Assembly: GCA_017526785.1 (NCBI GenBank) | Contig: JAFXQV010000021.1 | Coordinates: 62,001 to 126,000, forward strand | DNA from: Oscillibacter sp. | GTDB taxonomy: Bacteria; Bacillota; Clostridia; Oscillospirales; Oscillospiraceae | Reading direction: 5' to 3' | Length of the DNA: 64,000 bases | Shown here: in pieces, positions 19,875-30,811 of the stretch | Layout of the letters: every line of letters starts with the position of its first letter | Numbering within the stretch: position 1 is the stretch's first letter | Made by a program: the position numbers and the translations under genes | The notes under the pieces: model-generated | What the model was told of the DNA's origin: nothing | What the model saw: the letters and a program-made list of their open reading frames with translations, nothing else | Database searches by the model: none

Positions 19875-19903
19875 TTGCAATCCGCGCCTGTTTCCGGTAT
19901 ACT
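19875..19903 (+). promoter_or_regulatory. SigA-type promoter of the hydrolase/condensation/carrier/ligase operon
   Basis: TTGCAA (19875-19880), a 17-base spacer and TATACT (19898-19903), 63 bases before the hydrolase start. No other promoter-like pair was found in the short gaps inside the operon. Confidence 0.7.
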
Positions 19904-19966
19904 GTACGCAGTCCCCGTCCCCGCACAGGCGGGACTGAATCATGATTTCGTCAGGAGAACCGAATT

Positions 19967-21112
19967 ATGAGCGCAATACAGCAAATGGAAATCCGAATCA
20001 ACGCTTCCATGCAGAGCCTGATTGACTTTGACCCCGATATCCGGGAGTACGAGATAGAAGTGCCTTCGGACTGCTTCGCCCTGAAATTCCACTTGAAATA
20101 CAATCCCGCCTACTATATCAGCATCCGGGCGGACCATGACGCGGGGCGCTACGGCTTCCAAGACCTTGACCCCGCAATGGGGGACTATATCGCCGGAACC
20201 GAGGTGCCGTACTACGAATATTACGACGGCTACATTGTCCGGCTCGACAAACGCCAGCCCTGCTTTGAGCAGGACATGCACATGACCATTTCCGTCCGCG
20301 CCGGTTCCTACGAGTTCGGCGAGGAGGCGTACGAAATCCACTTGACGCGGAAGTGTCTCCGGGAAGTCCGGCAACTGTTCCGGGAGAGCGTCTACGACGA
20401 CACCGAATATCAGGTCACGGTTCCCTACGCGCTCTACGTGCCGTCGGACTACGACCCGGCGAAGCGCTACCCGATTGTCGTTGCCCTGCACGGCACCGGG
20501 GAGCGCGAGGAACCCATTGAGGCCATCCTTGAAAAAATGGCAATGGCGACCGCGTGGGCGGAGGATTCCGAGCGCGGACACAATCAGTGTCTGGTACTGG
20601 TTCCCCAGTGCCGCATTCACTACAATCAGGAGGACAACTGGACTTCCCTTGTGCAGTTCATCAACGGGCATTCCAATTCCCCGTTCTGGCCGTTCCCGCA
20701 GTTGAAGGCCGTCTGGAACCTGCTCCGGAAACTCGTGGAGGAGTACAGCGTGGACGAACGGCGCATTTACTTGACGGGGGTTTCGTCGGGCGGCTTCGCG
20801 GTGTACGTGCTGGCCATGGAACACCCCAACGCGTTCGCCGGGCTGATTCCGGTCAGTTGCGCCGCCAACCCGGACAAAATCAACCTCTTAAAGGGTATCC
20901 CCATGTGGATTTTCCACTCCGACGACGACCCGCTGATTGTGCCGTCGTGGACGCTTGACCCGTGTCTGGCGGCGATGGACAATGCCGGGGTCAAGTACCG
21001 TCTGACCCGCTACCCCGCCGGAAGGATTTTCTGGCAGTCCGGACACTTCGCGTGGGAAGCCTGCTACCACAGTCAGGAAGTGCGCGACTGGCTCTTTGGA
21101 CAGGCTATCTGA
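19967..21112 (+). CDS. Alpha/beta hydrolase (esterase/PHB-depolymerase-like) with N-terminal beta-sandwich
   Basis: A 381-residue protein without signal peptide. Residues about 15-130 look like a cadherin-like beta-sandwich module (FDPDIREYEIEVPSD ... YEIHLTRK). The hydrolase domain follows: oxyanion region PIVVALHGTGERE, nucleophile elbow GVSSGG (Ser273), acid in HSDDDPL (about Asp319-321) and a His in QSGHFAWEACYH (His360). This architecture occurs in secreted carbohydrate esterases, but here the enzyme seems cytoplasmic. AGGAG precedes the ATG by nine bases. It is the first gene of the operon with the condensation, carrier and ligase genes, so it may release a thioester-bound product or hydrolyse a precursor; this is inference. 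Confidence 0.85.
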   Translation: MSAIQQMEIRINASMQSLIDFDPDIREYEIEVPSDCFALKFHLKYNPAYYISIRADHDAGRYGFQDLDPAMGDYIAGTEVPYYEYYDGYIVRLDKRQPCFEQDMHMTISVRAGSYEFGEEAYEIHLTRKCLREVRQLFRESVYDDTEYQVTVPYALYVPSDYDPAKRYPIVVALHGTGEREEPIEAILEKMAMATAWAEDSERGHNQCLVLVPQCRIHYNQEDNWTSLVQFINGHSNSPFWPFPQLKAVWNLLRKLVEEYSVDERRIYLTGVSSGGFAVYVLAMEHPNAFAGLIPVSCAANPDKINLLKGIPMWIFHSDDDPLIVPSWTLDPCLAAMDNAGVKYRLTRYPAGRIFWQSGHFAWEACYHSQEVRDWLFGQAI

Positions 21113-21180
21113 CATTGACCCTTTCCGCCGTCGGGCGGTGGCAAGTCCCTTCAACAAATTCGCGGAGACTGGGAGGCTTT

Positions 21181-22572
21181 ATGGAAAAGGAACTGTATCC
21201 CTTGAACGTGGGGCAAATGCTGCAATACCTTCCTATCAAGGAAACCGGGACGCAGCGCTGTTGCAACATCAGCGTGTTTTGCGGGCTTCAGTCTCCGATT
21301 GACTTCGGACTGCTGAAACACGCCGTACAGGACGAGTTCGAGCGGGCGGACTGTCTGCGCTTGCGCTTCACAGCCCCCGACGAAAACGGCGATGTCATGC
21401 AGTACGTCGTCGACCACGACGACCGGGACGTGCCGTTTCTGGACTTGTCGGGAATGACCATGCCGGAGGCCGACGCCTACTTGCAGAGCAAGACCTATGA
21501 GGAGTTCAACGCCCCCGACATTCCCATGGCGGAATTTACCATGGTCAAAATGCCGGAGGGCTACAACGGCCTCTATATCCACATCGACCACCGTCTGACG
21601 GATTCCACGGCGCTGATTGTCACGGTCAACGACATCATGGAGATTTACTGTCACTACCGCTTCGGGAGCGAGTACCCCGCGCCGCTGGCTTCGTTCATCG
21701 AGGTTCTCAAGAAAGACCTTGAGAAGGCCAATAACCCGAAACGGCAGTCCAAGGACGAAAAATTCTGGCGCGACATGCTCACCGAGAACGGCGAGCCGAT
21801 TTACTCCGACATCCAAGGCCCCGGCGTGCTTCGGGCGAGCCGCAAGGCGCACGGCGACCGCACCCTGTGCGCGGCGGACGTGGAGAAGAAAGACCGTTCC
21901 GTGGGAATCGCCGACTTCCACTTGGAGCCGGAGGCCACGCAGAATATGATGGACTTCTGCATGAATCACAACATCTCCATGACGAATCTGATTTTGCTTG
22001 CCATGCGGACGTATCTTTCCAAGCAGAACGGCGGACAGCAGGACATTATGCTTCGCAACTTTGTTTCCCGCCGCTCGACCCGCGAGGAATGGACTTGCGG
22101 CGGAAGCCGTACACTCTCCTACCCGTGCCGGACTATCATCACGCCCGACACCGAGTTTCTGGACGCCGCCTACAAGGTGCAGGACGTGCAGAACCGCGTC
22201 TACCTCCACAGCAACTACGACCCCATGAAGGTCAAAGCGATGATGAAGGAGCTGTACCCCACGCCCGACGACACGGAATATATCAGTATGTCGCTGACCT
22301 ACCAGCCCATGCCCGTGCGCATGAAGAACGAACACTTGAAGGGAATCAACGTGCGGAGCGTTTGGTACCCCAACGGAGCCGCCACGAAGAAAATTTACCT
22401 CACCGTCACGCACAGCGCCAACGACGGCGGCATGATTTTCGACTTCCACTATCAGAAAGCCTCCCTGACCTACCACGACATGGAACTGCTCTACTACTAT
22501 ATGATGAAAATCATCTACAAGGGCATGGCCGAACCGGACATGACCATCGGCGAAATCATCACCAATATCTAA
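21181..22572 (+). CDS. Stand-alone condensation-domain protein (NRPS-like acyltransferase)
   Basis: A 463-residue protein with the two-lobed condensation fold of NRPS enzymes, which joins an acyl or peptidyl thioester to an amine or alcohol. The HHxxxDG motif reads IDHRLTDS at residues 135-142: the catalytic second His (137) and the Asp (141) are kept, while the first His is Asp and the Gly is Ser. Later core motifs include NFVSRRSTREE and the bridging region near SLTYQPMP. GGGAGG stands just before ATG 21181; the frame is open further upstream but that part overlaps the hydrolase. It is followed 28 bases later by a carrier protein and then by an adenylating ligase. Its acceptor is unknown. 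Confidence 0.85.
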   Translation: MEKELYPLNVGQMLQYLPIKETGTQRCCNISVFCGLQSPIDFGLLKHAVQDEFERADCLRLRFTAPDENGDVMQYVVDHDDRDVPFLDLSGMTMPEADAYLQSKTYEEFNAPDIPMAEFTMVKMPEGYNGLYIHIDHRLTDSTALIVTVNDIMEIYCHYRFGSEYPAPLASFIEVLKKDLEKANNPKRQSKDEKFWRDMLTENGEPIYSDIQGPGVLRASRKAHGDRTLCAADVEKKDRSVGIADFHLEPEATQNMMDFCMNHNISMTNLILLAMRTYLSKQNGGQQDIMLRNFVSRRSTREEWTCGGSRTLSYPCRTIITPDTEFLDAAYKVQDVQNRVYLHSNYDPMKVKAMMKELYPTPDDTEYISMSLTYQPMPVRMKNEHLKGINVRSVWYPNGAATKKIYLTVTHSANDGGMIFDFHYQKASLTYHDMELLYYYMMKIIYKGMAEPDMTIGEIITNI

Positions 22573-22600
22573 GCGGATTTTGTTGCAAGGAGGAATTATC

Positions 22601-22849
22601 ATGGACGAGCAAAAGAAGAAGGAATTTCTGGGGCTTGTTTCGCAATACTGCGAACTGCCCGAGAACGACATCAAGCCCGAAATGCGCTTCCGGGAGGACT
22701 TGGGCTTCAACTCCCTGAACTTCATGGCGTTTCTGGGCGACATCGAGGATACGTTTGACGTGGAACTCGACGAACAGAAGGCCGTCACGCTGACCACCAT
22801 CGCGCAGGCGCTGGAATATCTGGAAGAACTCACCAAAGAAGAGGAGTAA
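22601..22849 (+). CDS. Acyl/peptidyl carrier protein
   Basis: An 82-residue acidic four-helix protein. The phosphopantetheine site is Ser38 in DLGFNSLNFMAFLGDIED; the usual Asp before the Ser (DSL) is Asn here, while the rest of helix II is typical. AAGGAGG is seven bases before the ATG. Position between condensation and adenylation genes argues for a pathway-specific carrier rather than the fatty-acid ACP. No phosphopantetheinyl transferase is encoded in the window, so it would depend on a host AcpS/Sfp enzyme. Confidence 0.92.
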   Translation: MDEQKKKEFLGLVSQYCELPENDIKPEMRFREDLGFNSLNFMAFLGDIEDTFDVELDEQKAVTLTTIAQALEYLEELTKEEE

Positions 22850-22872
22850 CCACACCGGAAGGAGGACACGCC

Positions 22873-24429
22873 ATGTCCGAACAGAGACTGATTCCCGAAA
22901 TCATCCGGCACAGCGCGGCGGCCTACGCCGACCTGCCCGCCGTCCGGTGGGCTGTCCGCAAGAATACCGAGGAGCGTTCCTACGCCCGTCTCGATTCCGA
23001 CCGGAGGAAGATTTGCAACGCAATTGCCACCCGAGGCTTTGCGGGCGCGCATATCGCGCTCATCGGCGCGAGTTCCTATCCGTGGATTGCGTCCTATCTG
23101 GGACTTGTCAGCGGCAGGACGACCGCCGTACCGCTTGACGCCGGGCTTCCCGCCGAGGAACTGGCGGACCTGCTCAACCGTTCTGATTCACAAGCGCTGT
23201 TTCTGAATCCCAAACAGGACAGTTTGGTATCGGTTGTCAAGGAATCTTGTCCGAAAGTGCGCCTGATTGTCCTTTTGACCGAGGAACGTTCCGTGACGCC
23301 CGCGCCGGGTATGGCCACGTTCGGCGACCTGACCGCGGAAGCGTCCGACGCCGAACCCGCGGACGTTCCCGCCGAGGACGATGTCTGCACCATCATTTAC
23401 ACGTCCGGCACCACCGGCAAGAGCAAGGGCGTCATGCTGACACAGCGCAACCTCTACGACAACATGAAAAACGTGAATGTCACGGCCGCCCCCGGGACGC
23501 GCATGCTCAGCGTACTGCCGATTCACCACGCCTACTGCCTCGTCATGGACTGGCTCATGGGCTTCAACAAGGGCGCGACGCTCTGCATTAACGATTCCCT
23601 CTTGCACATGATTCGCAACATCAGCCGTTTCGAGCCGGATATTATCCTCATGGTTCCGCTGATGATTGAGACGCTCTGCAAGCGCCTGCAAGCCGCCGAA
23701 AAAGAAGGTTCCGACGCCGTACACGCCATTACGGGGGCGAATCTCAGGCGCATTTTCGCGGGCGGCGCGCACCTTGACCCGTACTATATCGGCGCTATGG
23801 AGAAGTTCGGCATTGCGGTCTACGAGGGCTACGGGATGTCGGAGTGTTCGCCTACCATCAGTTCCAACGACGAACGGGGCGATAAACCGGGTTCCGTGGG
23901 GCGTCCGCTGGCGAACGCCGAACTTCGTTTTGTGAACGGGGAAGTGCAGGTACGCGGCTCGTCGGTCATGAAGGGCTACTACAAAATGCCCGCCGAGACC
24001 GCCGAGGCACTCAAAGACGGCTGGCTCCACACCGGAGACTTGGGACATCAGGACGAAGACGGCTTCCTGTTCATTACGGGGCGCTTGAAGAATCTGATTA
24101 TTCTGTCCAACGGCGAGAACGTGTCGCCGGAGGAGGTAGAGGGGAGTTTCGCGCTGGAACCGCTCGTTTCCGAAATCATCGTCACGGGCGAGAGCAACGG
24201 ACTGACGGCGCGGATTTACCCCGACCCGGACTATGTGGAGCAGCACGGCATGGACGCCGACGCCGTGCAGGCGGCCTTACAGGAAATCATAGACCGCTAC
24301 AATAAGCGTCAGCCGACGTATCGTGCCATTACGAAACTGGTCGTAAGAAAGTACCCGTTCCTGAAAAGCGCGACGCGCAAAATCAAGCGGCCTCTGGCGG
24401 AAATCGACGCCCCCGCCGAGGAAGCGTAA
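22873..24429 (+). CDS. AMP-forming acyl ligase (ANL superfamily adenylation enzyme)
   Basis: A 518-residue adenylate-forming enzyme that would activate a carboxylic acid with ATP and load it onto the neighbouring carrier (or CoA). Core motifs: IIYTSGTTGKSKGVMLTQR (about 174-192), YEGYGMSECSP (317-327), GWLHTGDLG (383-391), GRLKNLIILSNGENVSPEEVE (403-423 region) and the terminal catalytic Lys in SATRKIKRP. The set resembles fatty-acyl ligases more than amino-acid A domains; the substrate-binding Asp235-type signature of amino-acid A domains was not recognised. GGAGG precedes the ATG. It closes the operon and is followed by a terminator. Substrate prediction would need a structural model. Confidence 0.92.
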   Translation: MSEQRLIPEIIRHSAAAYADLPAVRWAVRKNTEERSYARLDSDRRKICNAIATRGFAGAHIALIGASSYPWIASYLGLVSGRTTAVPLDAGLPAEELADLLNRSDSQALFLNPKQDSLVSVVKESCPKVRLIVLLTEERSVTPAPGMATFGDLTAEASDAEPADVPAEDDVCTIIYTSGTTGKSKGVMLTQRNLYDNMKNVNVTAAPGTRMLSVLPIHHAYCLVMDWLMGFNKGATLCINDSLLHMIRNISRFEPDIILMVPLMIETLCKRLQAAEKEGSDAVHAITGANLRRIFAGGAHLDPYYIGAMEKFGIAVYEGYGMSECSPTISSNDERGDKPGSVGRPLANAELRFVNGEVQVRGSSVMKGYYKMPAETAEALKDGWLHTGDLGHQDEDGFLFITGRLKNLIILSNGENVSPEEVEGSFALEPLVSEIIVTGESNGLTARIYPDPDYVEQHGMDADAVQAALQEIIDRYNKRQPTYRAITKLVVRKYPFLKSATRKIKRPLAEIDAPAEEA

Positions 24430-24436
24430 CACAAAT

Positions 24437-24467
24437 AACGCCCTCCCACATCCGGGAGGGCGTTTCA
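24437..24467 (+). terminator. Rho-independent terminator of the condensation/ligase operon
   Basis: AACGCCCTCCC (24437-24447) pairs perfectly with GGGAGGGCGTT (24454-24464) around a short loop, followed by TTT. It lies between convergent genes. Confidence 0.85.
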
Positions 24468-24481
24468 TGTGAGTGACGGCA

Positions 24482-25603
24482 TTAAGGGTTTGCGGCTGAT
24501 TCTCTCATCAGCAAAATGATTTGTTCCCGCAAATCCAGAATATCTTGCTTGTTGGACACGCTATCCAGTGTCCATATTTGACGGATGGACTGATTCAGGT
24601 CACTGTACCAGTACACAGCGTCTGTATCAATCGTCAAAACACCCCGGTTGAATAGCTTGTCGAACGCGGCAAAGCGATTCTTTTTCTTATCCAATACCAG
24701 CGCGTCCAGAGCGCAGTATTTACGCAGTTGTCCAATTAAATCCTTTTCCGCGTAAATGTTCAATTTAACTTCGACCGGAAGATATTTTTCGTCAAGTAAA
24801 ATGACATTATCCACAAAAGAAGGCTTTCGTCCCTGTTTTATGCAGGGGCATTCCATAAAAAAGCCCTTTCTGTCGCCGAGAGATTCCAGCAGATAGTCCA
24901 CATAATACGCTCTGAACTGCTTTTCAAGAAAAAAACTGCGCCGATATTGCGAGGCAACCTGAATCCAGTTGTCCCCCGTGATTTTTGCAAGCGGAATCGG
25001 CATAGCAATACTTTCTTCTAAGTAGCGCGGCACGGCGTTTTTACTCATAATCAGCGCTTTTAATGCTTCAAACTCCTTGCCGAAAACACCTGTAATGGCT
25101 CCACCACGAGAGAGCATGATAAATATATTGAATTCGGAAATATCTATAGGCTCTTGAAAGCAATATAGACTATCAATTGGTGCGTATATCTTTGATTTCC
25201 AATGAGGGTCAAAGTCGAAATCTTCACCTTTGTCATAAAATGGAGATTCGCATACTTTTCCCATAGCGAAGATTTTTCCACCGTATTGCTGATATAATTC
25301 CGTCCCCCGTTCAAGCGCGGAACTCAAAATTGCATAATCTTCCGCGTTATAGTCGTCTTTGGAAGCCCGTAACACAGTTTTTAATTTGGATATAGTGGCT
25401 TTTGCGGTTTTTGTGTGCATAAAAAACACGATATCGCCCGTTTTGCACCACTTAGGCATAGTCCACTCAGTGTATCCGCCATTCTCTAAGTCGAAAAATA
25501 TATCTTCGACATTAAATCGACCATGTACTGTTTCAACTTTAAACAGTTCTTCTAAGGACTTTGGAAATGAGATGTTATTGATAACAGCCTGTACTTCTTT
25601 CAT
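24482..25603 (-). CDS. Unknown protein with probable PD-(D/E)XK nuclease-like C-terminal domain
   Basis: A 373-residue protein I cannot assign to a named family. In the C-terminal half FVDNVILLDEKYLPVEVKLNI gives the spacing of a PD-(D/E)XK site: Asp265, Glu278, Lys280, with a helix holding Glu227 upstream (FLEKQFRAYYVDYL). The N-terminal 120 residues contain WTMPKWCKTGDIVFFMHTKT, which faintly recalls nucleic-acid-reader modules of the PUA/EVE kind. Base composition is clearly more AT-rich than its neighbours, suggesting transfer. It has its own promoter and no obvious partner. A defence or restriction-like nuclease, or a DUF with archaeal Holliday-junction-resolvase-like fold, are the main options. 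Confidence 0.6.
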   Translation of the reverse strand: MKEVQAVINNISFPKSLEELFKVETVHGRFNVEDIFFDLENGGYTEWTMPKWCKTGDIVFFMHTKTAKATISKLKTVLRASKDDYNAEDYAILSSALERGTELYQQYGGKIFAMGKVCESPFYDKGEDFDFDPHWKSKIYAPIDSLYCFQEPIDISEFNIFIMLSRGGAITGVFGKEFEALKALIMSKNAVPRYLEESIAMPIPLAKITGDNWIQVASQYRRSFFLEKQFRAYYVDYLLESLGDRKGFFMECPCIKQGRKPSFVDNVILLDEKYLPVEVKLNIYAEKDLIGQLRKYCALDALVLDKKKNRFAAFDKLFNRGVLTIDTDAVYWYSDLNQSIRQIWTLDSVSNKQDILDLREQIILLMRESAANP

Positions 25604-28315: not shown

Positions 28316-30784
28316 TTACGCGCCGCCTGACTTTACGTTGATAACCTGCTTCTCCGGCATAGGCCAGTCCCCGTAATGCTTCGTCATCCATTCGGCGGTA
28401 TACGTTCCGCTTTTGTTAAGCTGACTGATAGTCTGAAACAGATACTTGCCGCCATAATACTGTGTCAGCGTTGGGTCATACGGCACCGCGCCACTTGTAC
28501 AGGGGGCATAGGGGACATAATCCGTGAGTAAAGTATCAAACGCCTTTACGTTGGCAGGAGAACCATCCTCGCAAAATCCCACGTTGGGAAGTCCCGCGTT
28601 GATGATAGACAGATAGCGGTTGTCGTCATTCGGAAATTTCGTCGACTTCGACACCCTACCCGCGAACGCACCCTTATAGCTGGAACTTTCGCCCGTTATA
28701 TAACCAGTGACGTAACAATTTTGGATTGTGCCGTCTGTTGCCTTTCCAATAAGTCCGCCCGCAGTTTTGCCTCCGTCCACACTGGTTGTCGCGTAGCAGT
28801 TTTTCACGGTCAAACTCCCTGCACTACTCCCGATAAGGCCTCCGGCGTTCTCTTTAGCGGTAACGTTGTTGTTGCCCTTATCGTACTCCACGCCGATTGC
28901 CTTGTCCTCGGCATCTTTTTTTGTGATTACATGCCCTCCGGCGTAACTGTCCATAACTCTGGCGGAGGCTCCCCCGCTGACGGTGCCAATCAGTCCCCCG
29001 GCGTCGCCGTTACTCGATGTGACGTACACCGCCGCCGCGCTCTGCTCAATGGTACAGACACCCGGTGTTTCTCCGGCCGGAATTGCTCCAAGCACTATCT
29101 CACCAATGAGACCGCCAGTAGAAGATTTTCCCTGTACGGTTTTCTTTTCATCAGGTAAGTTAGGGGAGATATCGGGGGTATCATGATGTACCAACACACC
29201 TTGCACTTTGGAATTATCTTGCAAGATTTCCAAGACGCCGGCAAGTGCTCCCGCGTTGCCGCCGCTTGACTTGACATCGAAATTCACGAGTTCCAAGTCT
29301 GTCACGGTGGAACTGTGTCCCAGCGTCGCAAACAGTCCGGCGTTTCCGGATACGTTGATTTTTACATTGCTGATTGTATGACCGTTGCCGTTGTATGTGA
29401 TTTGCTTGTCATATTCAATTGTTCCATCATCTTTAATTTTTCCGCCGTTTGTGACGGGAAAATATTCACCGGGTTGTGTATGGGTATTGCCATAATAAAC
29501 GGATACATTGCCCGACATAAACTTGTCCCAGTCCATATCACTTGTCTGGTTCGCCTGCGTAATATGGACATTGTCAGGGTCGAAGTTAATATGGGAAACA
29601 GCGGAATCCAGATTTTCCAAGTGGCGGAAATTGGCAATGTCCGCAGTAGAGCCGTTTACCGAGGCAAACAAACTGTTGGTTTCAGCATTGGCACTGGTTG
29701 CGATATTCGTCAGTTCCGTGTTGTTATAAGACACCGCCCGGATGATAATGTCCTCACCGGGAAACAATCCCGCGTCCGCTATGATTTTGTGAAAGCGGGT
29801 GCCGTCCTGCGTCACGTCGTCGAGAATCACGCGGTAAGTCTTCGGGTAAAATTGGTCATCAGGTATTATATAATCCTTTTCCGAGGTGAAACCAGCCTTG
29901 GTTATGAGTTCAATAGGGAGACTGTTCCCACTCTGTTGCCCGGTAATTTCAAGGCGCAATCTTGCGTTTCCATACCACTCTAACGTTTTCGGGTTTTCTC
30001 CGTCCACATAATTCGGGTTTGTGACCTCCACATACAACTGTTCCGCGTTGACTACCTTGACCGTGGGGGGCGACAACGGCGCGCCCTTTGACACGGGTGT
30101 CGGTATCTCTCCGCCCGACTGTACCGAGAACCATTCCGGGTCCACGCCGTACCATCCAATAACGGCAGTACCCAGATATTGTCCACGCGCCCCCTTTTGA
30201 GCAGAGCCACTATAGCCCCATAGTGTATCATATATGTTTCTGCCCTCATCTTCCTTTGGCGGTGTTGCTTCATCCAGAGTGAATGTATGCGCAAATTTCC
30301 TGTTTTTAACGTCTCCTTCTGCTGTTTCCTCCGCTACCGCGTAAAACACATCCAGCACAAGGGCGGGGTCTTTCTGATACCGGATAACATAACTACCGTC
30401 CACTGTCCGGACTGTCTCATCTACAGAGGCGAAAGGCAACATCAGATTCAGCATATTCAGTGAATCGCGGTCAGTGTTAGTGTCTGGTTTCACGACATAA
30501 TAGTATATAGCTGGCTCGGTGGGCGTTCCTTTCTGATACGTTTTGCCCCAATCGGAATCGGATTTGGGGTCAATGCCCATGAAGCCTTGACTTTCGGCCA
30601 TGGTCAGGTGATTTTGCGCGGCGACGAAAATCTCACGGGCAATCCCGTCAAGTTCCACCTGCGTGAGCGTACGCTGATAGTGTACGACATTGACCGCCAC
30701 CACGGCCGACAGTATGCCGATAACAGCCACTGCCAGCATCAGTTCCAGCAGTGTAAATCCTCCCGTGTTTCTGCGTGTTTTCAT
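28316..30784 (-). CDS. Large type IV prepilin-like protein with GLUG repeats
   Basis: An 822-residue protein with a prepilin signal: basic leader, then GGFTLLELMLAVAVIGILSA, with the cleavage Gly and Glu+5. The body carries beta-rich sequence, and from about residue 470 several GLUG-type repeats (AGGLIGSSAG, AGGLIGKATDGTIQNCYVTG, GGLIGTVSGGASARV). GLUG motifs occur in surface adhesins. Normal pilins are 120-200 residues, so this resembles a minor or tip pilin fused to an adhesin. ATG 30784 has GAGG eight bases before it; a GTG three codons upstream is less likely. It is the last gene of a four-gene pilin operon. No assembly ATPase or peptidase gene is in the window. Confidence 0.85.
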   Translation of the reverse strand: MKTRRNTGGFTLLELMLAVAVIGILSAVVAVNVVHYQRTLTQVELDGIAREIFVAAQNHLTMAESQGFMGIDPKSDSDWGKTYQKGTPTEPAIYYYVVKPDTNTDRDSLNMLNLMLPFASVDETVRTVDGSYVIRYQKDPALVLDVFYAVAEETAEGDVKNRKFAHTFTLDEATPPKEDEGRNIYDTLWGYSGSAQKGARGQYLGTAVIGWYGVDPEWFSVQSGGEIPTPVSKGAPLSPPTVKVVNAEQLYVEVTNPNYVDGENPKTLEWYGNARLRLEITGQQSGNSLPIELITKAGFTSEKDYIIPDDQFYPKTYRVILDDVTQDGTRFHKIIADAGLFPGEDIIIRAVSYNNTELTNIATSANAETNSLFASVNGSTADIANFRHLENLDSAVSHINFDPDNVHITQANQTSDMDWDKFMSGNVSVYYGNTHTQPGEYFPVTNGGKIKDDGTIEYDKQITYNGNGHTISNVKINVSGNAGLFATLGHSSTVTDLELVNFDVKSSGGNAGALAGVLEILQDNSKVQGVLVHHDTPDISPNLPDEKKTVQGKSSTGGLIGEIVLGAIPAGETPGVCTIEQSAAAVYVTSSNGDAGGLIGTVSGGASARVMDSYAGGHVITKKDAEDKAIGVEYDKGNNNVTAKENAGGLIGSSAGSLTVKNCYATTSVDGGKTAGGLIGKATDGTIQNCYVTGYITGESSSYKGAFAGRVSKSTKFPNDDNRYLSIINAGLPNVGFCEDGSPANVKAFDTLLTDYVPYAPCTSGAVPYDPTLTQYYGGKYLFQTISQLNKSGTYTAEWMTKHYGDWPMPEKQVINVKSGGA

Positions 30785-30811
30785 AGTATCCACCTCGATA
30801 CTGCTTGTGCG

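Follow-up and report, generated by a model that had tools for sequence, protein, structure and literature searches.

A probable fatty-acid-amide-type operon adjoined by an esterase-type hydrolase gene in a small Oscillibacter clade

Synthesis of fatty-acid amides (FAAs) by discrete condensation (C), carrier (T) and ligase (A) proteins has been described in human-gut Clostridia. The OAA system of Coprococcus eutactus was reconstituted in vitro, where FAA formation by OaaC was shown by LC-MS, and its C protein was crystallised (according to the text of PMC13142362). In the scheme published there (legend to Fig. 1B), condensation with the amine itself releases the product, so that a release hydrolase is not required. 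The same account describes the motif DHxxxDS as frequent among FAA C domains and defines the motif of the FAA C clade as (D/H)HxxxD followed by S, A or G (PMC13142362). A three-gene CTA operon in which T lies between C and A is reported for Blautia wexlerae and other Lachnospiraceae, and the survey of 7,781 isolate genomes described in that report found CTA operons, at 70% identity over 80%, only in Lachnospiraceae (PMC13060934).

The window analysed here, a stretch of 64,000 nucleotides from Oscillibacter sp. (contig JAFXQV010000021.1), carries at 19967-24429 on the plus strand four genes for an alpha/beta hydrolase, C, T and A, in that order. The spacers between them are 68, 28 and 23 bases, which bears out the description of four closely spaced plus-strand genes in an earlier note made from the sequence alone, and a purine-rich stretch, judged by eye, stands ahead of all four start codons. 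Values of dN/dS against close relatives are 0.02-0.17, and the open reading frames are therefore real genes. A foreign origin was considered from composition and set aside, as the GC content of the operon (58.0%) gives no sign of it against that of the window (57.5%).

A sigma-70-like promoter (TTGCAA-17-TATACT) lies at 19875-19903 on the plus strand. Because the region holds six such sites against 1.9 expected, the call is based on conservation: all six aligned sequences, the window among them, retain the two hexamers 5′ of the hydrolase gene, including the sequence of a genome in which the hydrolase stands apart from C. A relaxed consensus scan gave no second promoter in the hydrolase-C gap of the window, in agreement with the single promoter proposed earlier, and no match in the corresponding gaps of loci L005 and L006; near that of L002 it gave one weak match (GGGACT-18-TATAAT). 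Separate C promoters in L003 and L004, where a similar block is visible by eye, were rejected, as neither passes the same scan. The terminator proposed in the earlier note is represented by a 12-pair stem at 24437-24464, a probable terminator between convergent genes, but only in the minus-strand direction did it obtain a terminator score; as judged by eye, the stem could serve both genes.

The second gene (21181-22572, plus strand) encodes a stand-alone condensation protein of OaaC type (463 aa; PF00668, 113.8 bits), which is identical to OaaC (PDB 12KH) at 260 of 460 positions (56.5%) in a gapless alignment. Residues 136-142 read Asp136-His137-Arg-Leu-Thr-Asp141-Ser142 (DHRLTDS), so that His137 and Asp141 of the HHxxxDG motif are kept and the other two positions are Asp and Ser, as had been stated. 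When 23 C sequences were compared, with EntF left aside, the first position of the motif was Asp in 18, and the last was Ser in 16 and Ala in 7. In a tree of 24 rows, the window lineage, L041 and OaaC group together with support of 99/99, rather than C falling with unrelated acyltransferases, an outcome that the earlier note had named as telling against its proposal. By motif and by this grouping, the protein belongs to the FAA C clade. Its predicted fold (pLDDT 89.9) retrieved condensation domains as the first Foldseek matches, with CDA C1 at the top and the RzmA starter C domain with C8-CoA among them. In the model, residues 215-224 form a helix, close in position to the insertion helix Gln214-His224 of OaaC (PMC13142362). 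This helix in the monomer model and the gapless alignment bear only indirectly on quaternary structure; by analogy with OaaC the protein probably forms a similar autoinhibitory homodimer, in which the face that binds the carrier would be blocked.

The acyl carrier protein (22601-22849, plus strand; 82 aa; PF00550, 46.2 bits) has its phosphopantetheine site at Ser38, which is invariant in 12 of 12 aligned carriers. The residue before this Ser is Asn37, as previously noted, and across the alignment it is Asn in nine carriers, Thr in two and Ser in one. The residues of C and of the carrier that had seemed unusual are thus present, but they are traits of the family. The AMP-forming fatty-acyl ligase (22873-24429, plus strand; 518 aa; PF00501, 208.1 bits; aligned among 13 sequences) matches best, among the NCBIfam models, a long-chain-fatty-acid--CoA ligase (248.7 bits, under the cut-off of 476), whereas the amino-acid adenylation domain model scores 124.8 bits (cut-off 317.4); by this comparison the ligase appears more of the fatty-acyl than of the amino-acid type, as had been suggested. 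An assembly-line nonribosomal peptide synthetase, with multidomain C-A-T proteins and an amino-acid A domain, was rejected: each of the three proteins holds one kind of Pfam domain, and the whole genome has only one PF00668 match. No phosphopantetheinyl transferase (PPTase) gene adjoins the operon, again as reported before, and the sole PPTase-family match in a whole-genome search, located away from the operon, is marginal (25.6 bits against a Pfam cut-off of 25).

The three genes encode discrete C, T and A proteins together, and very probably constitute an FAA/CTA operon like those known from Clostridia of the human gut. Whereas gene content, homology, order, selection and placement come from the present sequence comparisons, the reaction steps and the C dimer are modelled on OaaC, and the formation of an N-acyl amide from a fatty acid and a free amine is predicted chemistry. 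Using ATP, the ligase would activate a free fatty acid, which it would then load onto the phosphopantetheine arm of the carrier. The holo or loaded carrier would open the C homodimer, C would bind the acyl-carrier, and attack of a small free amine on the thioester would release the N-acyl amide. The proposal in the earlier note that the ligase loads an acid onto the carrier and C passes it to an amine, and its hunch that a gut-clostridial fatty-acid-amide set might be involved, are both strongly supported, at the level of sequence, by the identity to OaaC. Its description of a minimal uncharacterised pathway does not hold, as the C. eutactus system has been characterised (PMC13142362), and the operon adds a further relative to a known system and does not represent a new pathway; nor would a hydrolase be needed for product release, which in the scheme of that paper occurs by condensation with the amine.

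The acceptor could differ from 5-aminovalerate, given the extent of identity to OaaC. The glycine/proline reductase family PF09338 had no match in the genome, where the control search was silent too, and the PLP decarboxylase PF00282 was not found in it; an Orn/Lys/Arg-type decarboxylase is present, which singles out no particular amine. A product other than a fatty-acid amide, such as an acyl ester or the amide of a short or branched acid made on an OaaC scaffold with changed pockets, would be in keeping with the approximately 43% of C positions that differ from OaaC, with listed NCBIfam matches of the ligase that all fall below cut-off (best 25 of 104) and with dN/dS values of A that exceed those of C in matched comparisons. 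This alternative is nevertheless improbable, because C is placed with OaaC in the tree and shares both motif and neighbours with OaaC-type loci.

Within Oscillibacter, the C gene of the operon occurs in 6 of 86 genomes, which form one small clade. By an FtsW/RodA marker (no match in 5 of the 86), the six are among the seven closest genomes; the seventh, G316 (76% complete), has neither hydrolase nor C. Part of the operon-bearing clade is of ruminant forestomach origin, three of its genomes coming from goat or sheep. Among more distant relatives, 16 of the 18 loci for which flanks were fetched keep C-T-A in the same order and on the same strand, and the core genes accordingly do co-occur in other genomes, contrary to the other outcome that the earlier note had named as adverse. 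A PPTase gene lies within four of these 18 loci (L007, L044, L046 and L047), in L047 between T and A.

The first gene (19967-21112, plus strand) encodes an esterase-type alpha/beta hydrolase of 381 aa (PF00756, 29.7 bits, cut-off 22), in which no signal peptide was seen by eye. Its best matches are the esterases LC-Est1C and 3DOH (E 2.8e-44); the latter, from Thermotoga, aligns by its catalytic half over residues 141-380 of the window protein only, and has, to our knowledge, no link to amide synthesis. The presumed triad read from this alignment (Ser273, Asp320 or Asp321, and His360) is invariant in all six hydrolases. An AlphaFold model from six close sequences was unusable (mean pLDDT 39.1).

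Judged by layout, the hydrolase is probably co-transcribed with C-T-A in four of the six genomes. It may free acyl groups from esters to feed the ligase, a role that can be proposed tentatively and with less than even confidence. It is also conceivable, though again somewhat short of an even chance, that the hydrolase gene simply adjoins the C-T-A genes and does not contribute to the pathway, a single ancestor of the clade having acquired or kept the two side by side, with an incidentally shared promoter. Such an origin would account for the single-clade distribution, for the hydrolase of G321 on a different contig from C and that of G318 about 460 bases from it, and for a conserved hydrolase promoter even where the two are apart; likewise, neither kind of hydrolase was found in the tree-nearest FAA loci (L007 and L040-L043), some of whose other neighbours were scanned with Pfam. 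It accords less well with the strong purifying selection on the hydrolase and with its presence, at E 1e-40, in 6 of 6 C-bearing genomes, those with the two genes separated included, and in 0 of the 80 others, although this co-occurrence is set aside as statistical support because six genomes of one clade are not independent evidence. Against it stands also that in 9 of the 18 distant loci the place immediately 5′ of C is taken by an unrelated alpha/beta hydrolase, from a different subfamily, so that the slot may have been filled twice.

Type II thioesterases strip wrong acyl groups from carriers. An editing or recycling function of this sort, or degradation of the amide or a related ester, would suit the operon layout and an alpha/beta hydrolase with intact presumed catalytic residues in all six genomes; it is unlikely, since the best matches are esterases, PHB-depolymerase-type models match below their cut-offs, and the thioesterase family PF00975 is absent from the Pfam matches at E 0.1. 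The recurrent hydrolase adjoining C suggests a further step in the pathway. A broader reading, offered as speculation, is that on two or more occasions FAA operons recruited an ester- or lipid-cutting hydrolase 5′ of C, drawing on two alpha/beta-hydrolase subfamilies unrelated to each other, and that the Oscillibacter clade couples the freeing of an acyl group from an ester to its immediate capture as an amide. If so, this would be a hydrolyse-and-cap pathway with a plant or membrane lipid ester, or an unusual acid, as acyl source, and it could detoxify fatty acids and turn feed into host-active lipids.

The operon would place a pathway known for producing GPCR-active, hormone-like lipids in the human gut in Oscillibacter genomes, outside the sole CTA family found in the survey (PMC13060934). 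Among the best literature-search matches, none had a title that pointed to a CTA/FAA operon from Oscillibacter or ruminants, the main text of a survey of rumen biosynthetic clusters contains no occurrence of "fatty acid amide" (PMC8241843), and "hydrolase" occurs in the main text of neither of two published FAA papers.

The starter (lipo-initiating) C domains CDA C1 and RzmA C1, which are parts of large synthetases, share the fold of the window C protein (Foldseek E 1.7e-26 and 1.8e-25), but their sequence identity to it is only 15-16%. OaaC shares its DHxxxDS motif, and the OAA cluster (OaaA, OaaACP and OaaC) and, by the account in PMC13142362, the FAA clusters reported by Chang et al. (2021) likewise encode stand-alone C, T and A proteins. 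The Lachnospiraceae operon resembles that of the window in having T between C and A, and bacteria that carry it make acyl amines, whereas the relatives of the window are labelled Oscillospiraceae, unlike the CTA operons reported in that survey (PMC13060934). The less ordinary features of the present operon are its host and its hydrolase: in contrast to the OAA and FAA clusters, it belongs to an Oscillibacter clade and carries a co-directional esterase-type hydrolase gene 5′ of C.

The operon consists of four plus-strand genes that encode a hydrolase (19967-21112), a free-standing condensation protein, C (21181-22572; Pfam Condensation, 113.8 bits), a carrier, T (22601-22849; PP-binding, 46.2 bits), and an acyl ligase, A (22873-24429; AMP-binding, 208.1 bits), separated in order by 68, 28 and 23 bases, which confirms the four genes and the strand given in the earlier note. 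A sigma-70-like promoter site at 19875-19903 on the plus strand (consensus score 9/12) is conserved 5′ of the hydrolase gene in all six aligned sequences (the window, its Oscillibacter relatives L002, L004, L005 and L006, and L064, the hydrolase place of genome G321). Because six such sites were observed in the scanned region against 1.9 expected, the case for this promoter rests on conservation and not on the consensus match. The strong 12-pair stem after the A gene (24437-24464) was scored by the terminator scan on the minus strand only, on which it would terminate the converging gene at 24482-25603. Comparison with relatives shows strong purifying selection on all four frames, with dN/dS values of 0.05-0.10 for the hydrolase (five comparisons) and, in four comparisons each, 0.02-0.08 for C, 0.02-0.09 for T and 0.10-0.17 for A. 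Near the operon, the minus strand encodes a nuclease family protein of the PD-(D/E)XK transposase type (PF12784; 18174-19001). Elsewhere in the window, also on the minus strand, 28316-30793 encodes an 825-aa protein whose N-terminal methylation motif (PF07963) is of the kind found in type IV pilin-like proteins.

The best Protein Data Bank match of C is 12KH (E 1.4e-181; 260 of 460 positions identical in a gapless aligned stretch), followed by EntF (E 4.4e-07). As described in PMC13142362, 12KH is the structure of OaaC, the condensation protein encoded in the fatty-acid-amide (FAA) cluster of Coprococcus eutactus; OaaC is a homodimer, which holo or acyl ACP opens in part. The same source presents acyl-ACP and a free amine as the substrates of FAA C domains, reports that oleoyl-CoA gave no observed product, and describes DHxxxDS as frequent among these domains. 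The motif in the window's C is DHRLTDS, and among 23 C sequences (EntF aside) the first position is Asp in 18, His in four and Tyr in one, and the last is Ser in 16 and Ala in seven. In the predicted structure of C (pLDDT 89.9), a helix at 215-224 lies approximately at the place of the extra helix that PMC13142362 describes for OaaC. Condensation domains lead the Foldseek matches of this model, with CDA C1 on top, and the best 12 include RzmA starter structures, one with C8-CoA (identity 15-16%); 12KH is absent from the 50 matches listed, the library searched having entries up to 8 April 2026.

A maximum-likelihood tree of 24 C sequences (the window, OaaC, four Oscillibacter, 17 distant loci and EntF as outgroup; the fragmentary L006, both places of genome G038, which are 27-31% identical, and five other distant places, outside the set with wide flanks, were left out) joins the window lineage to the distant locus L041 (96/95) and next to OaaC (99/99). 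Because the branches of EntF and L051 are very long and that of L041 was also flagged as long, neither the root nor the deep forks are certain, and L041 can be placed only approximately. C was detected in 6 of the 86 genus genomes, 4 of 300 in the family sample and 20 of 391 in the class sample, the window's own included each time. By the kinship marker FtsW/RodA, matched in 81 of the 86 genus genomes, the six C-bearing genomes fall within the seven nearest to the window and therefore form one clade; in the seventh, G316 (76% complete), neither C nor the hydrolase was seen. The other five carriers appear to correspond to contigs labelled Oscillibacter sp., of which three come from goat reticulum or sheep rumen and two carry titles that name no source. 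In PMC13060934, which surveyed 7,781 isolate genomes, operons with discrete C, T and A genes (CTA) were found in Lachnospiraceae only, at a 70% identity cut-off, which would miss the window's C if OaaC were the sole reference.

Outside the genus, C was found at 24 places (four from the family search, 19 from the class search, and L007), and wide flanks cover 18 of these (L007 and 17 others). C-T-A order on one strand is kept in 16 of the 18, including L047, in which a PPTase gene sits between T and A. The exceptions are L053, which is cut by a contig end, and L039 (7435-11047, genome G038), in which a distant stand-alone C is followed by a different protein with a sub-cut-off AMP-binding match and by an ORF that matches no Pfam family; this may be a further minimal C system. 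A PPTase gene is present in four of the 18 loci (L007, L044, L046 and L047), two of them confirmed by Pfam: that of L047 (3930-4493), inside the set, and that of L007 (4968-5621), beside it on the other strand. The window's own genome has one PPTase-family match, which lies on contig C22 and scores 25.6 bits where the cut-off is 25. In this place (L065, 465-1818) the PPTase-like gene overlaps the end of an esterase gene of PF00756, the Pfam family to which the operon hydrolase also belongs.

The operon hydrolase is an alpha/beta hydrolase of the esterase type. Its catalytic half aligns with the esterase 3DOH (E 2.8e-44), and the presumed catalytic residues Ser273, Asp320/321 and His360 are unchanged in all six aligned sequences. 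At E 1e-40, it occurs in exactly the six of 86 genus genomes that have C, and in the family sample in 1 of 300, the window's own. In four genomes (window, L002, L005 and L006) at most 80 bases separate it from C, and in L004 about 460; in G321 the two are on separate contigs, and in the stretch L064 1166-3062 the hydrolase gene is flanked by a tRNA-Ser gene on one side and by tRNA-Asp and tRNA-Thr genes on the other. Because the carriers form one clade, this co-occurrence is weak evidence of shared function. Stronger, though noticed post hoc, is a recurrence: in 9 of the 18 distant loci (L037, L038, L044-L050), an alpha/beta hydrolase of a different kind lies directly 5′ of C on the same strand. 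This hydrolase is some 320 aa long, and its N-terminal part resembles, by eye, a membrane anchor; PF12146 was matched in all five that were Pfam-scanned, and the other four were assigned by similarity to those five. BLAST detected no relation between the two kinds (best E 0.013). Neither kind was seen in L007 and L040-L043, all of them loci that group with OaaC and the window, and the same holds for L039 and L051-L053; among the latter, L052 and L053 fall outside that group, and L053 is cut by its contig end. The position 5′ of C may thus have been filled anew, by another hydrolase, in the window's clade.

By analogy with OaaC, A would load a fatty acid on T, and C would pass the acyl group from T to a free amine; the chemistry proposed in the earlier note, from ligase to carrier to C to amine, is thus probably right. 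The condensation itself would set the product free, so a release hydrolase would not be needed; the operon hydrolase may provide free acid for the pathway. As to the candidate acceptor amine, an Orn/Lys/Arg-type decarboxylase is present in the window's genome, in which a PF00282 decarboxylase was not found and PF09338 gave zero matches, though the control was equally silent. According to PMC13060934, free fatty acids inhibited most of the Blautia species that were tested, and growth was rescued by some amines; a comparable benefit is plausible in the rumen. The pathway, taken for uncharacterised in the earlier note, is not so: the operon, whose gene content, order, homology, placement and selection were observed directly, is a further member of the known FAA/CTA kind, in a different clade of hosts and with a candidate accessory hydrolase.
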